A stretch of 64,000 bases of DNA, taken from positions 1-64,000 of the forward strand of contig CALMNL010000006.1 of the NCBI GenBank assembly GCA_937868765.1, in the 5' to 3' direction. The stretch is from an uncultured Desulfatitalea sp. (GTDB taxonomy: Bacteria; Desulfobacterota; Desulfobacteria; Desulfobacterales; Desulfosarcinaceae). This document shows, piece by piece, positions 29,856-39,671 of the stretch. The notes below the pieces were generated by a model, which saw only the letters and a list, made by a program, of their open reading frames with translations, was not told where the DNA came from and did not search any database. Numbering within the stretch: position 1 is the first letter of the stretch; each line of letters begins with the position of its first letter. A program made the translations under genes and the position numbers.

Positions 29856-30752
29856 TCAAGCTTTGGTGGACGAGAGAGCCGCCGGTCCGAAGATGGATTT
29901 TAGCACCACTTCGACCTTGGCCCCCACGGGGGGCATGCGCTCCCAGTCGACCTTGTAGTAGTTGACCGTGGTCTTGAGGGGCAGCACGTTGTCGGTGATG
30001 ATGCCGCCGTTGCAATCCGAGGGGCAGAGGATGCAGCCCGAGGGGAAGTGGATGGCCTCACCCGTGCCGTGGTAGATGAAGTGCGGCGTGTAGGGTTTGA
30101 TCACCTCTTTGCCTTCGACCTCGATCTTCTCCATGATGAAGTCTTCCAGCGCGCCTTCCACGATCTTGCCGTCCTTTTCAAAGCGGATGGTGCAGATGAT
30201 GGGGTCGCCATCCAGGTAGTCGTCGCGGGTGGTGGTGGCCTTGAGCCCCTTGCGCTGCTCGACCTCGTTCATGGGGATCTGGCGCCGGGAGCGGATGCCG
30301 ATCTCCTGGATGGCTCGATCGATGTCGACCCTGGAGACGGCGGTGGTGAAGACGAAGAAACCTTCCATTTTGCCGGCCCAAACACCGAAGAAGGCCTGGA
30401 AGCGACGGCCCCAGTCGGCCACCGAGGGCTTGGTGACATCCTTGGTCACCGTGGCCGAAATTCGCAGTTCGCGCGCCACGGCATCCAGGACCATGACATC
30501 TTGCTTGCCGCCCTGGTTGCCTTGCACCACGCGGGTGGCGGCCTGGGCTGGCACGGCCGCATCGGCCCGGCCGGTTCCCAGGGCGCTCAAGCCCAGGGCG
30601 CCCACAGCCAGCGTCTTCAGAAAATCGGAGCGGGTCAACCCGCTGCGGGAAGCTTGGGCGGCCGCGCCGGCTGTGCGGCCGGCGGTGAGGTTGTCGAAGG
30701 CATTGCCGGAACAGCAGCTGCATCCAGGTTTCTTCACGCCTTGAATTTTCAT
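29856..30752 (-). CDS. YdjY-like exported protein with cysteine clusters
   Basis: A 298-residue protein. An unusual N-terminus GCSCCSGN precedes a Tat-like segment (LTRSDFLKTLAVGALGLSALG) in which the second Arg of the twin-arginine motif is Ser. The C-terminal 130 residues fit the YdjY domain: GLKATTTRDDYLDG, HFIYHGTG, FPSGCILCPSDCNGG and RMPPVGAKVEVVL. The C-terminal CILCPSDC could bind metal. It is translated eight bases after the stop of the MerB-like selenoprotein, using an AGGAGG inside that gene, so the two are coupled. E. coli ydjY sits between ydjX and ydjZ (TVP38/TMEM64 proteins); a TVP38/TMEM64 domain is also in this operon. Function unknown. Confidence 0.75.
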   Translation of the reverse strand: MKIQGVKKPGCSCCSGNAFDNLTAGRTAGAAAQASRSGLTRSDFLKTLAVGALGLSALGTGRADAAVPAQAATRVVQGNQGGKQDVMVLDAVARELRISATVTKDVTKPSVADWGRRFQAFFGVWAGKMEGFFVFTTAVSRVDIDRAIQEIGIRSRRQIPMNEVEQRKGLKATTTRDDYLDGDPIICTIRFEKDGKIVEGALEDFIMEKIEVEGKEVIKPYTPHFIYHGTGEAIHFPSGCILCPSDCNGGIITDNVLPLKTTVNYYKVDWERMPPVGAKVEVVLKSIFGPAALSSTKA

Positions 30753-30759
30753 GGTGATC

Positions 30760-31404
30760 TTATTCCTCCTGTGTTTCCGAAAAGAGCATTCTGGCCGCCC
30801 CCAGGGCTTCCTGGAGGTTCAAGCCGAGGATCGGACGCGCCTCGAGGTGCATCTTTTGTACGTATTGATCGTAATGCTTCTTCGTACAGAAGAAGTTCAT
30901 GACGTTTCAGCAGCTGGCCGCCCAATCGTCCAGCTGATTCAAATCCATATGCAGCACATGCACGCCGGCCGGTGCGGCTGATGCGATGCGTCCATCCTGC
31001 AAGCGCAGGTAAATCGGTTCACCGCAGCGGCTGCATTTGGATTGGATCTGTGTATCCTGCGCGAAGGTGAAGGCGGCCCCGAGGGCATCGATGGCGCACA
31101 TGGCCGAAAAGGTTCGGCCTTCGGCCAGGGTCACCCGGTGATGGGTCGGCAGGGCCGATACCGGGTAGATAAAGGGTACGTCGCCCCGGGCATCGGCCAC
31201 CATGGCTTTTTGGACCAGCAGCTCTTCGATCTCCCGGGCGGAAGCCAGGCCGTGATTCCGGACGATGTTGAACGGCCGACCCTGGACCAGGGTGTGGACC
31301 AGGATGCGTTGACGGGCACGGCGAGCGTCCGGGCTCAAGCGGGAGGCGATGCTGTGCATGGCAAACGGTGCGTCGGCGAGCGGGGCTGTCAGTTCAGTCT
31401 GCAT
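30760..31404 (-). CDS. MerB-like organomercurial lyase, selenoprotein with in-frame TGA (Sec166)
   Basis: Read through the TGA at 30907-30909 this is a 214-residue protein; MerB has 212. Up to the TGA it shows YPVSALPTHHRVTLAEGRTF then SAMCAIDALG; after it NVMNFFCTKKHYDQY and a C-terminal helix. MerB cleaves carbon-mercury bonds using C96, D99 and C159. Here C103, D106, C124 and U166 have the same spacing as MerB C96, D99, C117 and C159, and FF follows at +5/+6 in both. A SECIS-like hairpin starts 11 nt after the TGA. A GGAG ribosome site (31413-31416) serves ATG 31404. A plain stop (165 residues) would remove the essential third catalytic residue. The MerB numbering is from memory. Alternatives: a nonsense-mutated gene, or a relative with another organometal or selenium substrate. 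Confidence 0.85.
30877..30895 (-). promoter_or_regulatory. Bacterial SECIS-like hairpin of the MerB-like gene
   Basis: In the reverse-strand mRNA, CUUCUUC (30895-30889) pairs perfectly with GAAGAAG (30883-30877) around the five-base loop UGUAC (30888-30884). The loop begins 18 nt after the UGA (30909-30907) and has G in its second position. Known bacterial SECIS elements have the loop about 16-37 nt after the UGA, with a G in the first two loop bases. Fit is by eye, not by a folding program. Confidence 0.75.
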
Positions 31405-31438
31405 TTTGCTTTCTCCGCATGCATTGGATTCGATTCCA

Positions 31439-33949
31439 TCACGTGACCGATGGCAACAGCAGTTCCCAGATCAGGCGCAGCACGAGGGACGCGGCCATGA
31501 GCAGGGTCAGCGACTTGAAGCGTACCCGGGTGACGGCCCCGAGAAAGGCGGGCAGCGCCACCGGGACATAGGGCACGGCGAGCATCAGTGCCAGGGAGGG
31601 GTAGACCCATCCCGTCAACGGCGCCTTGGACCGGCGCAGCAGGGGCAGCAGATCCCCGAGCACATAGCGGCCCACCCCGAAGGCCAGCCAACCGACCAGC
31701 AGATAACTGATCAGGGTGAGCAGCGTCCCGATCAAGGGGCCGAAGGCCTGAAGTGCGGCCGGTGTCAGGATCGGACGCGCAAACGGCACCACCAAATTCT
31801 GGAAGAGATGGGCCATCATCAGATTGGGCATGCCACCCAGCGGTCCTAATGACTGGAAGTATTGAGCGAACAGATCCGCGTTTGCCTTCCGAAGATTGTT
31901 CTCCATGAACATGCCATGGAATTCGGCCGTGTAGACATAGCTGTCGAGGATGTACATGAAATGACGGATGGCGAAGAAAAGACCAGTGCAGGCCAGGGCG
32001 GCGACAGCGGCGACCATGGCCTTGCGGCATATCACCCGTTTGCAATCGTCGAGGGTGCAGGCATCTTTCTCGGCCTGGGCCAGCTTGTCGCGGCAGAAGG
32101 TGCGCACCCGGCTCACCGCCGGTCGCAGCGTCTCCTTGAAGCGCTTCTTGAGCTTGATGCGGTTGAGATAGGTCCAGGGGGCGGAGCTCACCTTGGGCCC
32201 GCCGTTCAAAGACTGTGCCGGGTTGAAGAGCAGATCGGTGATGTGCACCGTGGGCGTGATCCGTGATAGGAATCCGGTGCACCCCGCGCAGTAGGTGACG
32301 ACCCGCCGCCCCCTGGCCTCCTCCTTGCGTCGCAGCCCCCAGCCCTTGGCCAGATCCGATCGGACGAATCCCACACTGCCGCCTTCGCCGCAGCACAAGG
32401 TGCGCTGTCGGCTGTGTTTCATCTCCGTTAGGCCGATGCCCATGCGTCCGAGCAACGCACGGACGGCCTCCTGGGGGCCGCTTTCGGTGCGCAGGGGGCA
32501 GGGATCATGAACCGTCCAGTGGCCGGACGGTCTGCCGCTCACCCGGGCGCCATCGGGCAAAGGGTGGCCCACCAGGTGCTCGTAAACGGTCTGCACCGCC
32601 AGGTTTTCGCCATACTGCTTGAACATCTTGTGACAGTTGGGGCAGGCTACCAGCACCCTGCGGATGCCCTGACCGGCGAGATAGCCGTGCATCTCACCGA
32701 ACATGGCTTCGAAATGCTCCTGGCGCCCCAGATCGTGGGACGGCTTGGTGCAGCAGTCCAGAACGATGCCCAGGTTGGGAATGCTTCTCTGCAGGTGCCT
32801 GAAAAGCTGCCAGGTGGTCTCCGGACGCGTGCCGGGAAGGGTGCAACCGGGAAAGAAGATCGTGTCGCAGCCGGCGGGCAATCCATAGTAGGAGAAGAGC
32901 GGCGAACTGCCGCGCTTTTCATAGTTCAGAACAGTGCCATAGCGGGAGAGAGCGGCGCGGCCATCGGCCATGGCATCCCGCCGAACCGCCAGAAACAGAT
33001 CGGCCGGCGCCAGTTTTTCAGGGCACACCGCCGTGCACAGGCGGCACAGGCTGCACGCGAAGGCCACGGTCCGGCCGCTCTCCTGGGAGAAATCGCAGCG
33101 CTCGACAATATCCCTGGGCAAGCCGTGCTTCTGCAGGAATGCGCACTGAGTCTGGCAAGCGCCGCACGCAGTGCATTCGGAACGCACTTTCGCCACTTGG
33201 GCTAGCAGGGCCGGGCTTTGGCCGATGGCCGGATTTTCTTCGGCCGCGGTGGAACAGCCGGCGCGGCGGCGGTAGGTTTGCAGCAGCTTTTTGGCCACCA
33301 GGGGAAAGATGCCCAAAAGCGCCAGGGAGAGAATCAGCCTGGGCGCGACGATGCCCGACAGGGACTCGATCTGCGCCAGTTGGCTGCCGGCATTGACGAA
33401 TAGAATGGTGCCGGGCAGCATCCCCAGCTGGGAGACCCAGTAGAAAGTCCAGAGGCGGATGGGGGTCAGTCCCATGACCATATTGATGATGAAGAAGGGA
33501 ATAATGGGGATCAACCGCAGTGAGAAGAGGTAGAACGCACCCTCGGCGCGGATGCCGTCGTTGACCCGCAGCAGCCGGTCGCCGAATTTGCGCTGGACCC
33601 AATCCCGCAAGAGATAGCGGCACAACAGGCAGGCCAGGGTGGCACCCAGGCTGCTGGCGAATGAGATGATCACGGTGCCGGTGAGGGTGCCGAACAGGGC
33701 GCCGGCGGCCAGACCCAGGATCACTGCGCCCGGCAGGTTCAGGGCGATCACCGGAATGTAAACCGCCACGAAAAGGGTGATCACCGTGACGGGGTGCCGG
33801 CTGTAAAGTTCATGGAAGCGTGCCTGGGACCCTTTAAGGGCCTCCAGGGTCAGGTGCCGGTGCAGACCGGTGGCGAAGAAGAGGGTGACGACGATGGCGA
33901 GAAGAAGAATAAGGAGCAGCTTTTTGACGGCACTTCGATTCATGGGCAT
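31439..33949 (-). CDS. Triple fusion: TVP38/TMEM64 membrane domain, HdrD/GlpC-like Fe-S domain, C-terminal membrane domain
   Basis: An 836-residue protein. Residues 1-230 form a TVP38/TMEM64 (DedA-superfamily) membrane domain, with GAVILGLAAGALFG and SLRLIPIIPFFIINMVMG. Residues 255-310 carry two [4Fe-4S] ferredoxin motifs (C259, C262, C265, C269 and C299, C302, C305, C309). Residues about 360-560 hold two CCG-type halves: FFPGCTLP, LDCCTKPSHD and VACPNC, then DPCPLRT, LCCGEGG and YCAGC. From about 640 to the end there are four or more transmembrane helices of a type I cannot name. The open frame is continuous, so this is a true fusion. It is first in the operon with the MerB-like and YdjY-like genes and divergent from selD. 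It could move electrons across the membrane to, or for, a transported substrate. Confidence 0.85.
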   Translation of the reverse strand: MPMNRSAVKKLLLILLLAIVVTLFFATGLHRHLTLEALKGSQARFHELYSRHPVTVITLFVAVYIPVIALNLPGAVILGLAAGALFGTLTGTVIISFASSLGATLACLLCRYLLRDWVQRKFGDRLLRVNDGIRAEGAFYLFSLRLIPIIPFFIINMVMGLTPIRLWTFYWVSQLGMLPGTILFVNAGSQLAQIESLSGIVAPRLILSLALLGIFPLVAKKLLQTYRRRAGCSTAAEENPAIGQSPALLAQVAKVRSECTACGACQTQCAFLQKHGLPRDIVERCDFSQESGRTVAFACSLCRLCTAVCPEKLAPADLFLAVRRDAMADGRAALSRYGTVLNYEKRGSSPLFSYYGLPAGCDTIFFPGCTLPGTRPETTWQLFRHLQRSIPNLGIVLDCCTKPSHDLGRQEHFEAMFGEMHGYLAGQGIRRVLVACPNCHKMFKQYGENLAVQTVYEHLVGHPLPDGARVSGRPSGHWTVHDPCPLRTESGPQEAVRALLGRMGIGLTEMKHSRQRTLCCGEGGSVGFVRSDLAKGWGLRRKEEARGRRVVTYCAGCTGFLSRITPTVHITDLLFNPAQSLNGGPKVSSAPWTYLNRIKLKKRFKETLRPAVSRVRTFCRDKLAQAEKDACTLDDCKRVICRKAMVAAVAALACTGLFFAIRHFMYILDSYVYTAEFHGMFMENNLRKANADLFAQYFQSLGPLGGMPNLMMAHLFQNLVVPFARPILTPAALQAFGPLIGTLLTLISYLLVGWLAFGVGRYVLGDLLPLLRRSKAPLTGWVYPSLALMLAVPYVPVALPAFLGAVTRVRFKSLTLLMAASLVLRLIWELLLPSVT

Positions 33950-34067
33950 CCAGTCCGGGCCTCCATTCCCACATGTGCGACCCTTTTAGCGGCGTTCGCC
34001 TTGGGTGCAGGAACTTACAGCTTCCATTTGAATTTGGAATTTGCTACTTACATTAAGCCCGGTAATA

Positions 34068-34100
34068 ATTCAAATATGTGAAAGTAATAGATATTTGAAT
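34068..34100. promoter_or_regulatory. Perfect inverted repeat between divergent selD and fusion operons
   Basis: ATTCAAATAT (34068-34077) and ATATTTGAAT (34091-34100) form a perfect 10-bp inverted repeat with a 13-bp spacer, in the AT-rich 224-bp gap between the two divergent operons. A third copy of its ATTTGAAT core is at 34026-34033. Position and symmetry suggest an operator shared by both directions. The regulator is not in this window. Confidence 0.6.
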
Positions 34101-34173
34101 GCGTATAGAAAATCTCTATGGAAAGCGCCGCCTGCCTTGGTGCCAAGGTGGCAGGGGCGATACGGTAAACGCA

Positions 34174-35223
34174 ATGGCGGATGAATCGAAAACGCGGCTG
34201 ACCCAGACGGTCAAGGGCGCCGGCTGAGCTTCCAAGCTGGCGCCAGGGGACCTGGACAAGGCACTTTGCGGGATGATCTTTCCCAAGGACGACAATGTGT
34301 TGGTGGGGCTGGAGCGCGCCGACGACGCCGGGGTCTATCGCATCACCGATGATCTCGCCCTGATTCAGACGGTGGATTTTTTCACGCCCATTGTGGACGA
34401 TCCCTACTGGTTCGGGCAGATCGCGGCTGCCAATGCCTTGAGCGACGTCTACGCCATGGGCGGCGTGCCCAAGACCGCCATGAATCTGGTGGGGTTCCCC
34501 ATCAAAGAGATGGATATCGATGTGCTGCGCCAGATCATCCAGGGGGGCATCGATAAGATCCGCGAGGCCGACGCCGTGCTGGTGGGCGGCCACAGCATCG
34601 AAGACAGCGAACTCAAATATGGGCTGTCGGTCACCGGCTTCGTGCATCCGGCGCGGGTGCGGGTCAAAAACAACCTGCGGCCCGGCGATCGTCTGATTCT
34701 CACCAAGCCGCTGGGTACCGGGATCATCAACACGGCCATCAAGGCGGCCATGGCAGCGCCGGGGGTGATCGACCGGGTGACCCGGCTCATGGCCGCCCTG
34801 AATCGCACGGCAGCCGAGACCATGGCCGATTTTCCGGTGCATGCCTGCACCGATATCACCGGTTTCGGCCTGTTGGGGCATTTGGCCGAAATGGTTTCGG
34901 GTTCGGGTTGCAGCGTGCGCATCGAGAGCCGCAAGGTGCCGATCCTGCCGGAAACGGCTGCCTTCGCCGGCATGGGTCTGGTGCCGGGCGGCGCCTTCAA
35001 GAACAAGAGCTTTCGGCAGGCCATGACCATCTTCGATGCCGATGTGGACGCCGTCATGCAGGACATGCTCTTCGATCCCCAGACATCGGGCGGCCTGCTC
35101 ATCAGCATCGCCTCCGAGGAGGCCGATGCTTTGGCCGCGGCACTGGGCCGTAAGGGCGTGCCCGCGGCCGACGTGATCGGCGAGGTGCTGGACGGTCCGC
35201 TTGAAAAGATTTTCGTAAGCTGA
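34174..35223 (+). CDS. selD: Selenophosphate synthetase, selenoprotein with in-frame TGA (Sec18)
   Basis: A 349-residue enzyme that makes selenophosphate from selenide and ATP, the selenium donor for Sec-tRNA. From ATG 34174 the frame reads VKGAG, TGA (34225-34227), ASKLAP, which is the conserved SelD motif G-(C/U)-x-x-K with Sec at residue 18 and the catalytic Lys at 21. The rest (LVGLERADDAGVYRITDDLA, ALSDVYAMGG, HACTDITGFGLLGHL, DPQTSGGLL) is standard SelD. An ATG-only call would begin at 34273 and lose the active site. A SECIS-like hairpin follows the TGA. yedF lies downstream; selA and selB are not in the window. Confidence 0.95.
34243..34255 (+). promoter_or_regulatory. Bacterial SECIS-like hairpin of selD
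   Basis: CCAGG (34243-34247) and CCTGG (34251-34255) pair around the loop GGA (34248-34250). The loop begins 20 nt after the TGA and has G first, within the bacterial SECIS range. Judged by eye. Confidence 0.6.
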
Positions 35224-35288
35224 TGATATCAACCACCTGCCCATTGGAAATTTCATCCCGGTCCAGGCTTTTACAAGGAGATCATACC

Positions 35289-35888
35289 ATGAGAGAGATC
35301 GATGCCAGGGGCCTGTCCTGTCCCGCGCCGGTGCTGCATACCAAGGCGACTCTCGAGCAGGAGCGCCCCGAAGCCGTCAAAGTGCTGGTGGACAATGCCG
35401 CTTCCCAGCAAAACGTCGAGCGTTTCTTACGCTCCCAGGGGTACGAGGTTCGTCTGGCACAGGAGGGCGTTGATTTCGCCGTGATCGGCCGGAGCGGCGC
35501 GTCCGGTACGATCCCCGAATCCGAACCCGCACCGTCCGCCCCGGAAGCCAGTCAGAAGATAATGGTGATGTGCGCCACCGACCGCATCGGCTTCGGCGAC
35601 GAGAGCCTGGGGTTGAAGCTGATGGTGAACTTCATCCGCACCCTCAAGGAAATGGGGCCGGAGTTGTGGCGGCTGGTACTCGTCAACAACGGCGTGAAGC
35701 TCAGCGTGGCCGGTTCGCCGGTGCTCGAAGAACTGAAAGCCTACGAGGCCGGCGGGGTGACCATCCTGGTGTGCGGCACCTGTCTGGAGCATTTCAAATT
35801 GCTGGACCAGAAGCAGGCGGGTCAGACCACCAACATGCTCGATATCGTCACGGCCATGCAGCTGGCCGACAAGGTGATCAATCTGTGA
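35289..35888 (+). CDS. yedF: Selenium metabolism protein YedF (TusA domain plus DsrE-like domain)
   Basis: A 199-residue protein. Residues 1-75 are a TusA-like domain with the CPxP motif in DARGLSCPAPVLHTK; residues about 95-199 form a DsrE/DsrF-like domain with VMCATDRIGFGDESLG and the conserved Cys pair in ILVCGTCLEHF. The fusion is the YedF type found almost only beside selD, and is thought to handle selenium or sulfur for SelD. AAGGAG at 35275-35280 precedes the ATG. It follows selD by 65 bp in the same direction and is part of the same operon. Confidence 0.92.
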   Translation: MREIDARGLSCPAPVLHTKATLEQERPEAVKVLVDNAASQQNVERFLRSQGYEVRLAQEGVDFAVIGRSGASGTIPESEPAPSAPEASQKIMVMCATDRIGFGDESLGLKLMVNFIRTLKEMGPELWRLVLVNNGVKLSVAGSPVLEELKAYEAGGVTILVCGTCLEHFKLLDQKQAGQTTNMLDIVTAMQLADKVINL

Positions 35889-37253: not shown

Positions 37254-38150
37254 TTAGACTTCCAGCCAGGAGTCGGAGTACAGGCTTTTCCCCAGGATAA
37301 CGTTGACGGTCTTGGCGTAATCCTGCATCTCTTTGGGGAGGCTGGCGATGTTGGGCGTATTGCCGTCCATCATGCCGTAGATCAGGTCCACGATGTCCGG
37401 GCGCTTGCCCTTGGCGATGGCGGTGAGCTGGTCGTCTCTGGGGTCGGAGATGACCGAATGCATGCCGCACTTTTGCAGCATCACCATGTAGGTCTGGTTC
37501 ATGATCGGCCGCAGGTGATCGGGCGGTCCGTTGGAAATGTTGGACAGGCCGCAGGTGCTCTTGGCACCCGGGCACATGTCGGGGATCATCTTCTGGAACT
37601 CCATCAGGCTGATGGCCTGGGGCTGCTGGATGTTGACGGGGGTCACGATGCCGTCGATCCAGATTTTTTCGTTGGGAATGCCGGCCTCGTTGGCAAAATA
37701 GACCAGTTCCACACAAAGGGCGGCGCGCTCGTTTTCGTCGCGCGGCAAGCCTTCCGGACCCCACATCAGAGCGATGAAGTCGGCGTTGTACTGGGCGGCC
37801 ATGGGCACCATGCGCTCGTAGCGTTCCGGACGGCACATGATGGAGTTGATGATGTGCGGCGTTCCGCTGGGGACCTGTTTGATCACCTTCAGCGACGCTT
37901 CGATGGCATCGATATTGGAGGTGTCGAGGGCCAGGGGGATGTCGGGCACGACATCCTGGACCACCTGGACCACCCAGGGCATCAACTCGACGCCGTCTTT
38001 CTTGGCCGGTCCGAGGTTGATGTCGATGTAATCCATGCCTTTGCTTTTCTGGAAGAGGGCTTCTTCCTGGATCGGTTTGGGATCGCGCTCTTTGAAGGCG
38101 CGGCCGATCTTCTTGGAGATGACATTCAAGCTTTCGCCAATGAGTAACAT
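37254..38150 (-). CDS. acsE: Methyltetrahydrofolate:corrinoid/iron-sulfur protein methyltransferase
   Basis: A 298-residue TIM-barrel enzyme of the pterin-binding (DHPS-like) family. In the Wood-Ljungdahl pathway it moves the methyl group of methyl-tetrahydrofolate to the cobalt of the corrinoid protein AcsCD. MLLIGESLNVISKKIGRAF opens the protein; DYIDINLGPAKKDG, LALDTSNIDAIEASL and STCGLSNISNGPPD are pterin-binding strands. It is last in the acsD-cooS-acsB-acsC-acsE set, separated from acsC by a terminator-like hairpin, so its level may be set separately. Confidence 0.95.
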   Translation of the reverse strand: MLLIGESLNVISKKIGRAFKERDPKPIQEEALFQKSKGMDYIDINLGPAKKDGVELMPWVVQVVQDVVPDIPLALDTSNIDAIEASLKVIKQVPSGTPHIINSIMCRPERYERMVPMAAQYNADFIALMWGPEGLPRDENERAALCVELVYFANEAGIPNEKIWIDGIVTPVNIQQPQAISLMEFQKMIPDMCPGAKSTCGLSNISNGPPDHLRPIMNQTYMVMLQKCGMHSVISDPRDDQLTAIAKGKRPDIVDLIYGMMDGNTPNIASLPKEMQDYAKTVNVILGKSLYSDSWLEV

Positions 38151-38324: not shown

Positions 38325-39671
38325 CTACATGAACCGCTCTCTGAGGAAGCCGGGAATGTGGGCGGCTTCCCGCGGACCCACGGTGATGGTCCAGCCGGGC
38401 AGCTCTTCTTCGATGTCGCCCACAATGGCGGCCGCATAACCAGGGATGATCAGTTCGGTGTGTTTGACCTTCTCCATGATGCCGCTCTTCTTGACGAAGG
38501 CGCCGACATCGTCGCCCGCGAATTTGCCGGCAGCCCAGGCCGTGAGAACCGACAGGCCTTCGGAATCCTTGATCAGCAACCAGGAGGGGACGCGGCTGCT
38601 TTCGATTTCACCTGAGACGATGAAGTAGGTCAGGGCGAAGTTGGTGGTCACCAGCACCGGCGAATTCTCGTTGGGCGTACCGATGGGGTAGATGCCCTGG
38701 GTAACGGTCATCGGGCGCTGCGGGTCGGTGAAAATGTTGAGGCGCTCGAGCAGCAGCGGGAAAACGCTCTCGCCGGCGAAGTCCGACATGACCACGATGC
38801 CGCCGTACTTGGCGACGAACATGGCGGCCAGCATGGTCTCCACATCCAGGTTGGAGGCCATTTCGCACGGGAAGGTGATGGTGGGGAAGCCCACCGAGCG
38901 GTTGCCGTTCTTCAGGGCCGCGCGACGGATGGCGATCATGTCGGCGTTGGCCTGTTTGGGTTCGCGGCTGCCCGGATCGAGCACCAGGTCCTTGAGGCCC
39001 ATGCCGGTCAGCTTGTCGCTCAGCTTGGCCACGGCTTCCACCGACTCGGCCTTGACGGCCAGGGGCAGGTCTTTCTCTTTGGCCAGGGCGCCCATGGCAT
39101 CGGCATTGGCCGCGGTGGCGGCATACAGCAAGGGGCGTTTGAACCCGGCGGCGGCCACGCCGGCCTTCATGACATCGGCTTTTTCGGTCATCAGGATCAG
39201 GTTGAATTCGGAGGTTTCGGCGATCTGCTTGGCCAGCTTGCCGAAGGTGTCGGCGTTGCCGTTGACATCCTTCAGGGCGACCAGTTCGGGGCGCAGGTTG
39301 AGGCCCACGCGCTCATACTGCAGGGCGTTCCAGCCCTTAAGCTTCTTGGCCAGGGCGTCGGCGGAAATGTCCGAGGGGACCAGTGCAGCCAAAAGGGTCG
39401 GGCTGTAGAAGGTCTTCTCGTGTCGGTACTGCACGGTTTCGCCGCCGGTGGTGGCTTTGCGCACGCCTTTGCCCACCACGACCGGACGGATGGGGGGGGC
39501 CGAAGCTTCGGCCAACTGGGCCCGGGCTTCTTCCGATACGTAGGGGCAGGCGTCCAACTCGGCCTTGCCCGACGCCAGGTTCATGGCAAAGGCGAGACAG
39601 GTGGGCACGCCGCACTCCTTGCAGTTGGTCTTGGGCAGGAGTTTGAAAATCTGAATACCGGTTAATGCCAT
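38325..39671 (-). CDS. acsC: Corrinoid/iron-sulfur protein, large subunit
   Basis: A 448-residue subunit of the corrinoid Fe-S protein that carries the methyl group on cobalt to acetyl-CoA synthase. The N-terminal [4Fe-4S] motif is seen as C17, C20, C25 and C42 (LPKTNCKECGVPTC), which keeps cobalt reducible. The remaining TIM-barrel and B12-binding regions include EMASNLDVETMLAAMFVAK and VTTNFALTYFIVSGEIES. Length is normal. It lies 78 bp downstream of acsB and is clearly in the same operon. Confidence 0.95.
   Translation of the reverse strand: MALTGIQIFKLLPKTNCKECGVPTCLAFAMNLASGKAELDACPYVSEEARAQLAEASAPPIRPVVVGKGVRKATTGGETVQYRHEKTFYSPTLLAALVPSDISADALAKKLKGWNALQYERVGLNLRPELVALKDVNGNADTFGKLAKQIAETSEFNLILMTEKADVMKAGVAAAGFKRPLLYAATAANADAMGALAKEKDLPLAVKAESVEAVAKLSDKLTGMGLKDLVLDPGSREPKQANADMIAIRRAALKNGNRSVGFPTITFPCEMASNLDVETMLAAMFVAKYGGIVVMSDFAGESVFPLLLERLNIFTDPQRPMTVTQGIYPIGTPNENSPVLVTTNFALTYFIVSGEIESSRVPSWLLIKDSEGLSVLTAWAAGKFAGDDVGAFVKKSGIMEKVKHTELIIPGYAAAIVGDIEEELPGWTITVGPREAAHIPGFLRERFM

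Follow-up and report, generated by a model that had tools for sequence, protein, structure and literature searches.

Positions 30,760–31,404 of the window (the whole stretch of 64,000 nucleotides analyzed here, from an uncultured Desulfatitalea sp.) raise the question of whether a UGA within a MerB-like gene ends the protein or encodes selenocysteine (Sec), and what kind of protein would result. The open reading frame listed at 30907–31404 on the reverse strand encodes 165 amino acids and is closed by a TGA at 30907–30909. The first-pass annotation had proposed that the frame continues beyond this codon, and translation confirmed it. The saoL-like coding sequence (30760–31404, reverse strand) begins with ATG, contains a single in-frame TGA, and ends with TAA at 30760–30762, giving 214 residues when the UGA is read as the predicted Sec166 (U166). 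In the available part of PMC8261052, the MerB signature is given as C96, D99, C117, and C159. The first three are matched by C103, D106, and C124 of the window protein, and the C159 position is occupied by the UGA. The proposed spacing of C103-D106-C124-U166 (3, 21, and 63 residues from the first Cys) was likewise found to be that of the MerB signature.

The identity of the gene is indicated by family models and by the AlphaFold model of its product. The window protein scored 165.2 bits against the NCBIfam model NF040728 (SaoL, named a MerB-like organometallic lyase), which has an equivalog cut-off of 140, and the last residue matched by this model is the one directly before the UGA. Pfam MerB spans residues 83–208 (E 1e-28) and crosses the TGA. 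The NCBIfam models of true MerB gave 57.8 bits against a cut-off of 193 and 52.2 bits against 200, and neither cut-off was reached. The protein carries a CU motif, C165-U166, with the UGA at the C159 position, and the same arrangement is present in all seven other SaoL genes found. In a tree of 41 rows, the eight SaoL rows, including that of the window, form one starred clade apart from MerB. MerB (PDB 1s6l, 3f0o, 5c17) shares with the window protein the fold and the positions of C96, D99, C117, and C159. It differs in that the window protein has a predicted Sec at position 159, an extra Cys165 before it, the motif C124-x-x-C127, and the low true-MerB score.

A MerB-like protein with Sec at the equivalent of C159 had been put forward from the sequence as a kind not yet described. 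The first part of this proposal is supported by the family scores, the alignments, and the structure model, but the second part is refuted. The novelty claim fails because the NCBIfam SaoL cut-off is passed and because two reviews, in their available parts, list a MerB-like selenoprotein: SaoL appears in PMC13188914 with one Sec and the motif CU, and an entry for an alkylmercury lyase MerB-like selenoprotein is found in PMC9312934. In two older papers cited by the reviews for this selenoprotein, PMC2398784 and PMC5029168, neither MerB nor alkylmercury was found as a term in the main text. On its family score, the window gene is a member of the already known SaoL family, placed in a different gene setting. 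It resembles SaoL in passing the equivalog cut-off, in the CU motif, in the position of the UGA, and in a tail like that of the Clostridioides genes.

The conservation of the UGA was followed in a scan of one genome per species (84,980 species), using short patterns derived from the window protein aligned with two relatives. The scan gave 86 pattern-matching stretches, and seven loci encode SaoL relatives: one each in Desulfobacteraceae, Desulfuromonas, and Syntrophobacteraceae MAGs, and four in Clostridioides difficile records. TGA stands in the U166 column in all eight SaoL genes (the window gene and the seven others), which come from two phyla. The sequence CUN[IV]MNFF and a similar continuation are also present in all eight. 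A search for homologues with TGA or TGC at codon 166 had been suggested as a check, and each of the seven has TGA and the conserved tail. A Cys form of SaoL was not found in the 84,980-species scan, though one pattern allowed Cys at the site; this absence is suggestive only, because the scan relies on short patterns. Four of the eight genes are close Clostridioides copies, so the set represents about five independent lineages. One of the loci (L026/L056), without a clear start, was used minus its N-terminus.

The alignment score of the post-TGA tail of the window gene was 110 against that of L054, compared with at most 23 among 1000 shuffles, and 58 against that of Clostridioides L057, compared with 28.5 in shuffles. 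Identity to the window protein is 14–22 of 44–48 residues in the tail, below that of the pre-UGA stretch (47–62 of 98–100). Among the comparisons with the window gene, a clear predominance of third-position differences was seen for the Clostridioides genes only.

If the UGA were an ordinary stop, the product would be a 165-residue protein ending in Cys, and the tail would be untranslated. In favor of such a stop, the NCBIfam SaoL model ends exactly before the UGA, and this suggests that the model was built on truncated forms. However, the tail is conserved in all eight genes of two phyla, the Pfam MerB match crosses the UGA, and the downstream gene begins 7 nt past the TAA rather than past the UGA. 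A truncated protein would also lack the U166 column, which holds Cys or TGA throughout the 27 aligned MerB-like proteins; an ordinary stop is very improbable. Most of saoL has been lost in a genome of the same genus (G008), which would suit a decaying gene with the TGA as a nonsense mutation, but the same TGA is found in seven other SaoL genes of two phyla and the rest of the window frame is intact, so decay is scarcely credible. Both explanations were rejected on the conservation of the TGA and on tail similarity far above that of shuffles.

The reading of the UGA as Sec places U166 in the catalytic column of the family. Across the 27 aligned MerB-like proteins, invariance was confined to the columns of C103, C124, and U166, and a 20-protein set gave the same result. 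The placement of U166 under C159, another check suggested beforehand, was borne out by both alignments and by two of three structure-chain alignments. U166 falls on the catalytic Cys in the chain alignments to MerB2 (5c17) and to the MerB C160S mutant (3f2g); in that to 1s6l, there is a one-residue gap and U166 falls on the next Cys. The AlphaFold model of the window protein has a pLDDT of 88.9, and its 11 PDB matches at E<=0.001 are MerB entries without exception. Residues 151–170, which hold U166, were modeled with lower confidence (block means 78–79).

A SECIS-like hairpin, CUUCUUC/UGUAC/GAAGAAG, is located at 30877–30895 on the reverse strand, where its stem starts 12 nt and its loop 19 nt after the UGA. 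The 7-bp stem with loop UGUAC was thus found where the first-pass annotation had placed it. Its stability compared with plain shuffles is modest (z -1.4 and -2.0). In a synonymous-recoding test, the 15 codons after the TGA were recoded with synonymous codons; the window hairpin gave z -2.0 (p 0.053), and the eight SaoL genes gave a mean z of -1.57 compared with -0.26 at 43 control sites. The SaoL gene L026 had no hairpin signal in this test (z 0.25). The minimum free energy compared with plain shuffles was not significant for L054, L025, and L057, nor for either TGA of L002, the double-TGA gene of the window genome described below. Because the folding energy is not significant in several homologues, the Sec claim rests on alignment rather than folding. 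The window hairpin agrees with a SECIS element and would not prove one. An Rfam scan of 30500–31600 returned four matches, none near the gathering score, and therefore supports no SECIS claim.

The machinery for Sec insertion is present in the window genome, which encodes, outside the window, both SelB (360.6 bits) and a tRNA-Sec whose 72.4 bits exceed the gathering score. Within the window, selD (34174–35223, forward strand) was recognized by TIGR00476 in its post-TGA part (366 bits against a cut-off of 125). SelD, too, is predicted to contain Sec: the frame upstream of the first-listed open reading frame holds a TGA (34225–34227) in the context GUASK, and the listed frame starts after this TGA. 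The motif UxxK is given for SelD in the available part of PMC13188914. The selD gene is followed by yedF (35223–35888, forward strand), encoding a selenium-metabolism protein (TIGR03527, 207 bits against a cut-off of 110). The nearness of SelD, about 3 kb away, had been offered in favor of Sec. The distance holds (2.9 kb), but the proximity says little and was rejected as evidence, because SelB occurs in 202 of the 227 genomes of the phylum that were searched. For the window gene, then, the sequence supports the fold family, the catalytic column, the conservation of the UGA, and the Sec machinery.

The gene upstream of saoL (31439–33949, reverse strand) encodes a protein of 836 amino acids in which a domain scan found a VTT membrane domain together with 4Fe-4S dicluster and CCG domains. 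The downstream gene (29856–30752, reverse strand) encodes a YdjY-domain protein of 298 amino acids with a Cys-rich N-terminus (NF040466, 72.7 bits against a cut-off of 50). In G008, the fusion gene (80% identical) and the YdjY gene (87% identical) are both in place, and between them saoL is represented by its last 29 codons alone (L113:6333-6419). This match is entirely downstream of the UGA, still reads as the SaoL protein, and has 65.5% identity. saoL is deleted in G008 and is therefore dispensable there. Among 40 genomes searched, the full-length VTT/Fe-S/CCG fusion was observed only in the window genome and G008, with its start at a contig edge in G010; the separate halves were common.

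The window gene is unlike SaoL of the SAO system in this setting, as its neighbors are the fusion and the YdjY-domain protein. No SAO ABC transporter genes were seen among the neighbors of the window saoL, and the best SaoP score in the window genome, 168.9, stayed below the cut-off of 295. ABC transporter genes (recognized by reading translations) accompany saoL in Clostridioides L057, and two of them have in-frame TGAs. Four relatives of the L057 operon genes are found near saoL in L079, a Syntrophobacteraceae MAG, and in L054 an ABC ATPase-like gene, also recognized by reading its translation, is directly upstream of saoL. The region 29856–35888 had no match in phage records. Farther along the window, 37254–38150 is a methyltetrahydrofolate:corrinoid methyltransferase-like gene below its cut-offs, and beside it the stretch 38331–38708 is weakly HgcA-like (67 bits) and is perhaps an acetyl-CoA synthase gamma subunit gene.

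In MerB, two thiols bind the metal and Asp99 donates a proton, and mercury is held more tightly by selenolate than by thiolate. This chemistry suggests that C103 and Sec166 would grip the organometal, most simply R-Hg+, and that D106 would protonate the carbon leaving group. The metal would stay between Cys and Sec until its transfer, in which the vicinal C165 or the products of neighboring genes perhaps take part. Sec should aid capture and weakening of the C-Hg bond and should hamper release, for which the vicinal C165 may serve. Organomercurial lyase activity is what we infer for the window protein, its true-MerB scores lying far below the cut-offs.

The protein might instead carry Sec as a metal-binding or delivery protein for the products of its neighbors and not be a C-metal lyase. 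The membrane Fe-S/CCG fusion and the Cys-rich YdjY protein beside it would suit this function, as would the homologues placed among transporter genes, and metal transfer would be served by the extra C165 beside U166 and by C127, close to C124. However, D106, which corresponds to the proton donor of MerB, is present in each of the eight SaoL rows of the alignment, and a pure binder would not need it; a delivery function is rather unlikely. A lyase acting on another metal or metalloid (for example, an organotin, organoarsenic, or organoselenium compound) would agree with the family name, which is organometallic and not organomercurial, and with the neighborhood, since no mercuric reductase was named among the window neighbors scanned. 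Against this, the genome encodes HgcA and HgcB, which makes methylmercury a likely native compound, and a substrate other than mercury is unlikely. As a whole, the data are probably best explained by a SaoL member with the MerB fold and Sec at the C159 position, with the UGA decoded by SelB, tRNA-Sec, and the hairpin, and with organometal chemistry as the presumed activity.

The genes hgcA and hgcB lie side by side in the window genome (L119:4014-5317, contig G000:C2), where HgcA scored 426 bits against a cut-off of 275 and HgcB 125 against 99. The genome is a predicted mercury methylator and holds SaoL, one double-TGA gene, HgcA, and HgcB. A SaoL gene in an hgcA/hgcB genome, without adjoining SAO transporter genes, separates the lyase from the transporter. 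The available part of PMC8546676 describes the mechanisms of anaerobic oxidative methylmercury demethylation as still unclear.

Double-TGA genes were found when the SaoL model was searched against 146 relatives. Matches were obtained in 21 genomes at 23 places, and 19 of the 23 places had an in-frame TGA inside the match. When read through, nearly all of these TGA-holding matches represented two MerB-like clades, A and B, with TGA at both the C96 and C159 positions. A search of the phylum, in which 30 loci of the matched places were read, added further double-TGA members. The 51 loci classified, including that of the window, comprise 24 in clade A, 13 in clade B (L004-L007, L010, L016, L020-L023, L036, L038, L050), and 14 in neither. 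Both TGAs are present in all 23 clade A and all 13 clade B genes in which the frame was followed; L051 and L047, whose frame breaks down past the first TGA, are not among the 23 clade A genes. Each clade, like SaoL, forms one starred clade in the 41-row tree. Clade A genes that are complete and carry two TGAs were counted at 27 places, distributed over 23 genomes and 12 families, and clade B occurs in 14 of 395 phylum genomes. The window genome holds a clade A gene (L002:1483-2184, equal to G000:C9:69303-69998), MerB-like with predicted U92 and U157 at its two TGAs and over no NCBIfam cut-off, and no clade B gene was found there at E <= 1e-20.

Both clades share with the window gene the TGA at the C159 position and the Pfam MerB family, whose cut-off was passed by all four clade A/B proteins scanned. 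They differ from it by the additional TGA at the C96 position, and none of the eight clade A/B proteins scanned passed any NCBIfam cut-off. Clade A also differs at the D99 position, where 22 of the 23 genes have Glu and L019 has Asp; clade B keeps Asp. The clade A model (pLDDT 94.4) matched only MerB at E <= 0.001, as did that of the window protein. L011 and L013, which are Cys-type homologues of clade A, carry Cys at each of the two sites. The synonymous-recoding test gave mean z values of -1.98 at the second site and -0.74 at the first in the 23 clade A genes, and -0.98 and -0.41, respectively, in clade B, compared with -0.24 and -0.20 in controls. These means suggest a clear RNA signal only at the second site of clade A. 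No conserved neighbors were found within 6 kb of the double-TGA genes in 17 regions (13 of clade A and 4 of clade B) beyond the gene itself and scattered pairs. A comparison of viral contigs with clade A gave 30 pattern matches, none of them a relative.

Together, these data indicate that both MerB metal-binding positions, C96 and C159, are very probably Sec in two further families from Desulfobacterota, many of which are predicted mercury methylators. It is possible, and is put forward tentatively, that these two families and SaoL act in anaerobes as Sec-based lyases of organomercury and form a methylmercury demethylase route, in which the demethylase function is the uncertain step. From the catalogues checked, the double-TGA MerB relatives would be a new variant beside SaoL. 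A double-Sec MerB was not found among the open-access papers listed or in NCBIfam scans; most subscription papers lie outside this search, and absence from print is not implied. Under the terms MerB and mercur, the available part of PMC13188914 gave only SaoL and other mercury-related families.

The relationship between these clades and mercury methylation was counted at an HgcA threshold of E <= 1e-60, at which 117 of 395 phylum genomes were positive (114 over the cut-off). HgcA-positive genomes made up 19 of 23 with clade A compared with 98 of 372 others (Fisher p 8.5e-8); the 19 include G201 and G220, which have HgcA fragments below the cut-off only. G505 and G518, with split matches and one TGA each, are outside the 23 genomes, and a 25-genome variant gave 20 of 25. 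For clade B, 9 of 14 genomes were HgcA-positive compared with 108 of 381 others (p 0.0066). The genome lists behind these counts were compiled by hand. Within the five informative families, the direction of the clade A association holds with a CMH p of 0.076, from a table tallied by eye, and relatedness may therefore explain part of the association. Sec capacity is unlikely as its cause, because SelB occurs in nearly all genomes searched, as given above. Clade A relatives without TGA were HgcA-positive in 1 of 10 genomes, and relatedness could yield the same result; this count leaves out G185, in which a Sec copy is present as well, G164, where the match covers no more than the first 81 positions, and G487, with one TGA.

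A survey of merB took Cys at positions 96, 117, and 159 together with Asp at 99 as the mark of MerB and stated that no genome encoding only MerB codes for HgcAB (PMC8261052, available part). Sec-containing MerB relatives could escape such a Cys-based definition. If the wider reading of a Sec-based route is true, surveys by Cys would miss them, because the UGA splits the genes, and the Sec-containing relatives would be a natural test of the role of selenium at the Hg-C cleaving site. Two other MerB-like genes, L029 and L031 in genomes G180 and G439, have a TGA near the C159 position and lie outside clades A and B and SaoL.
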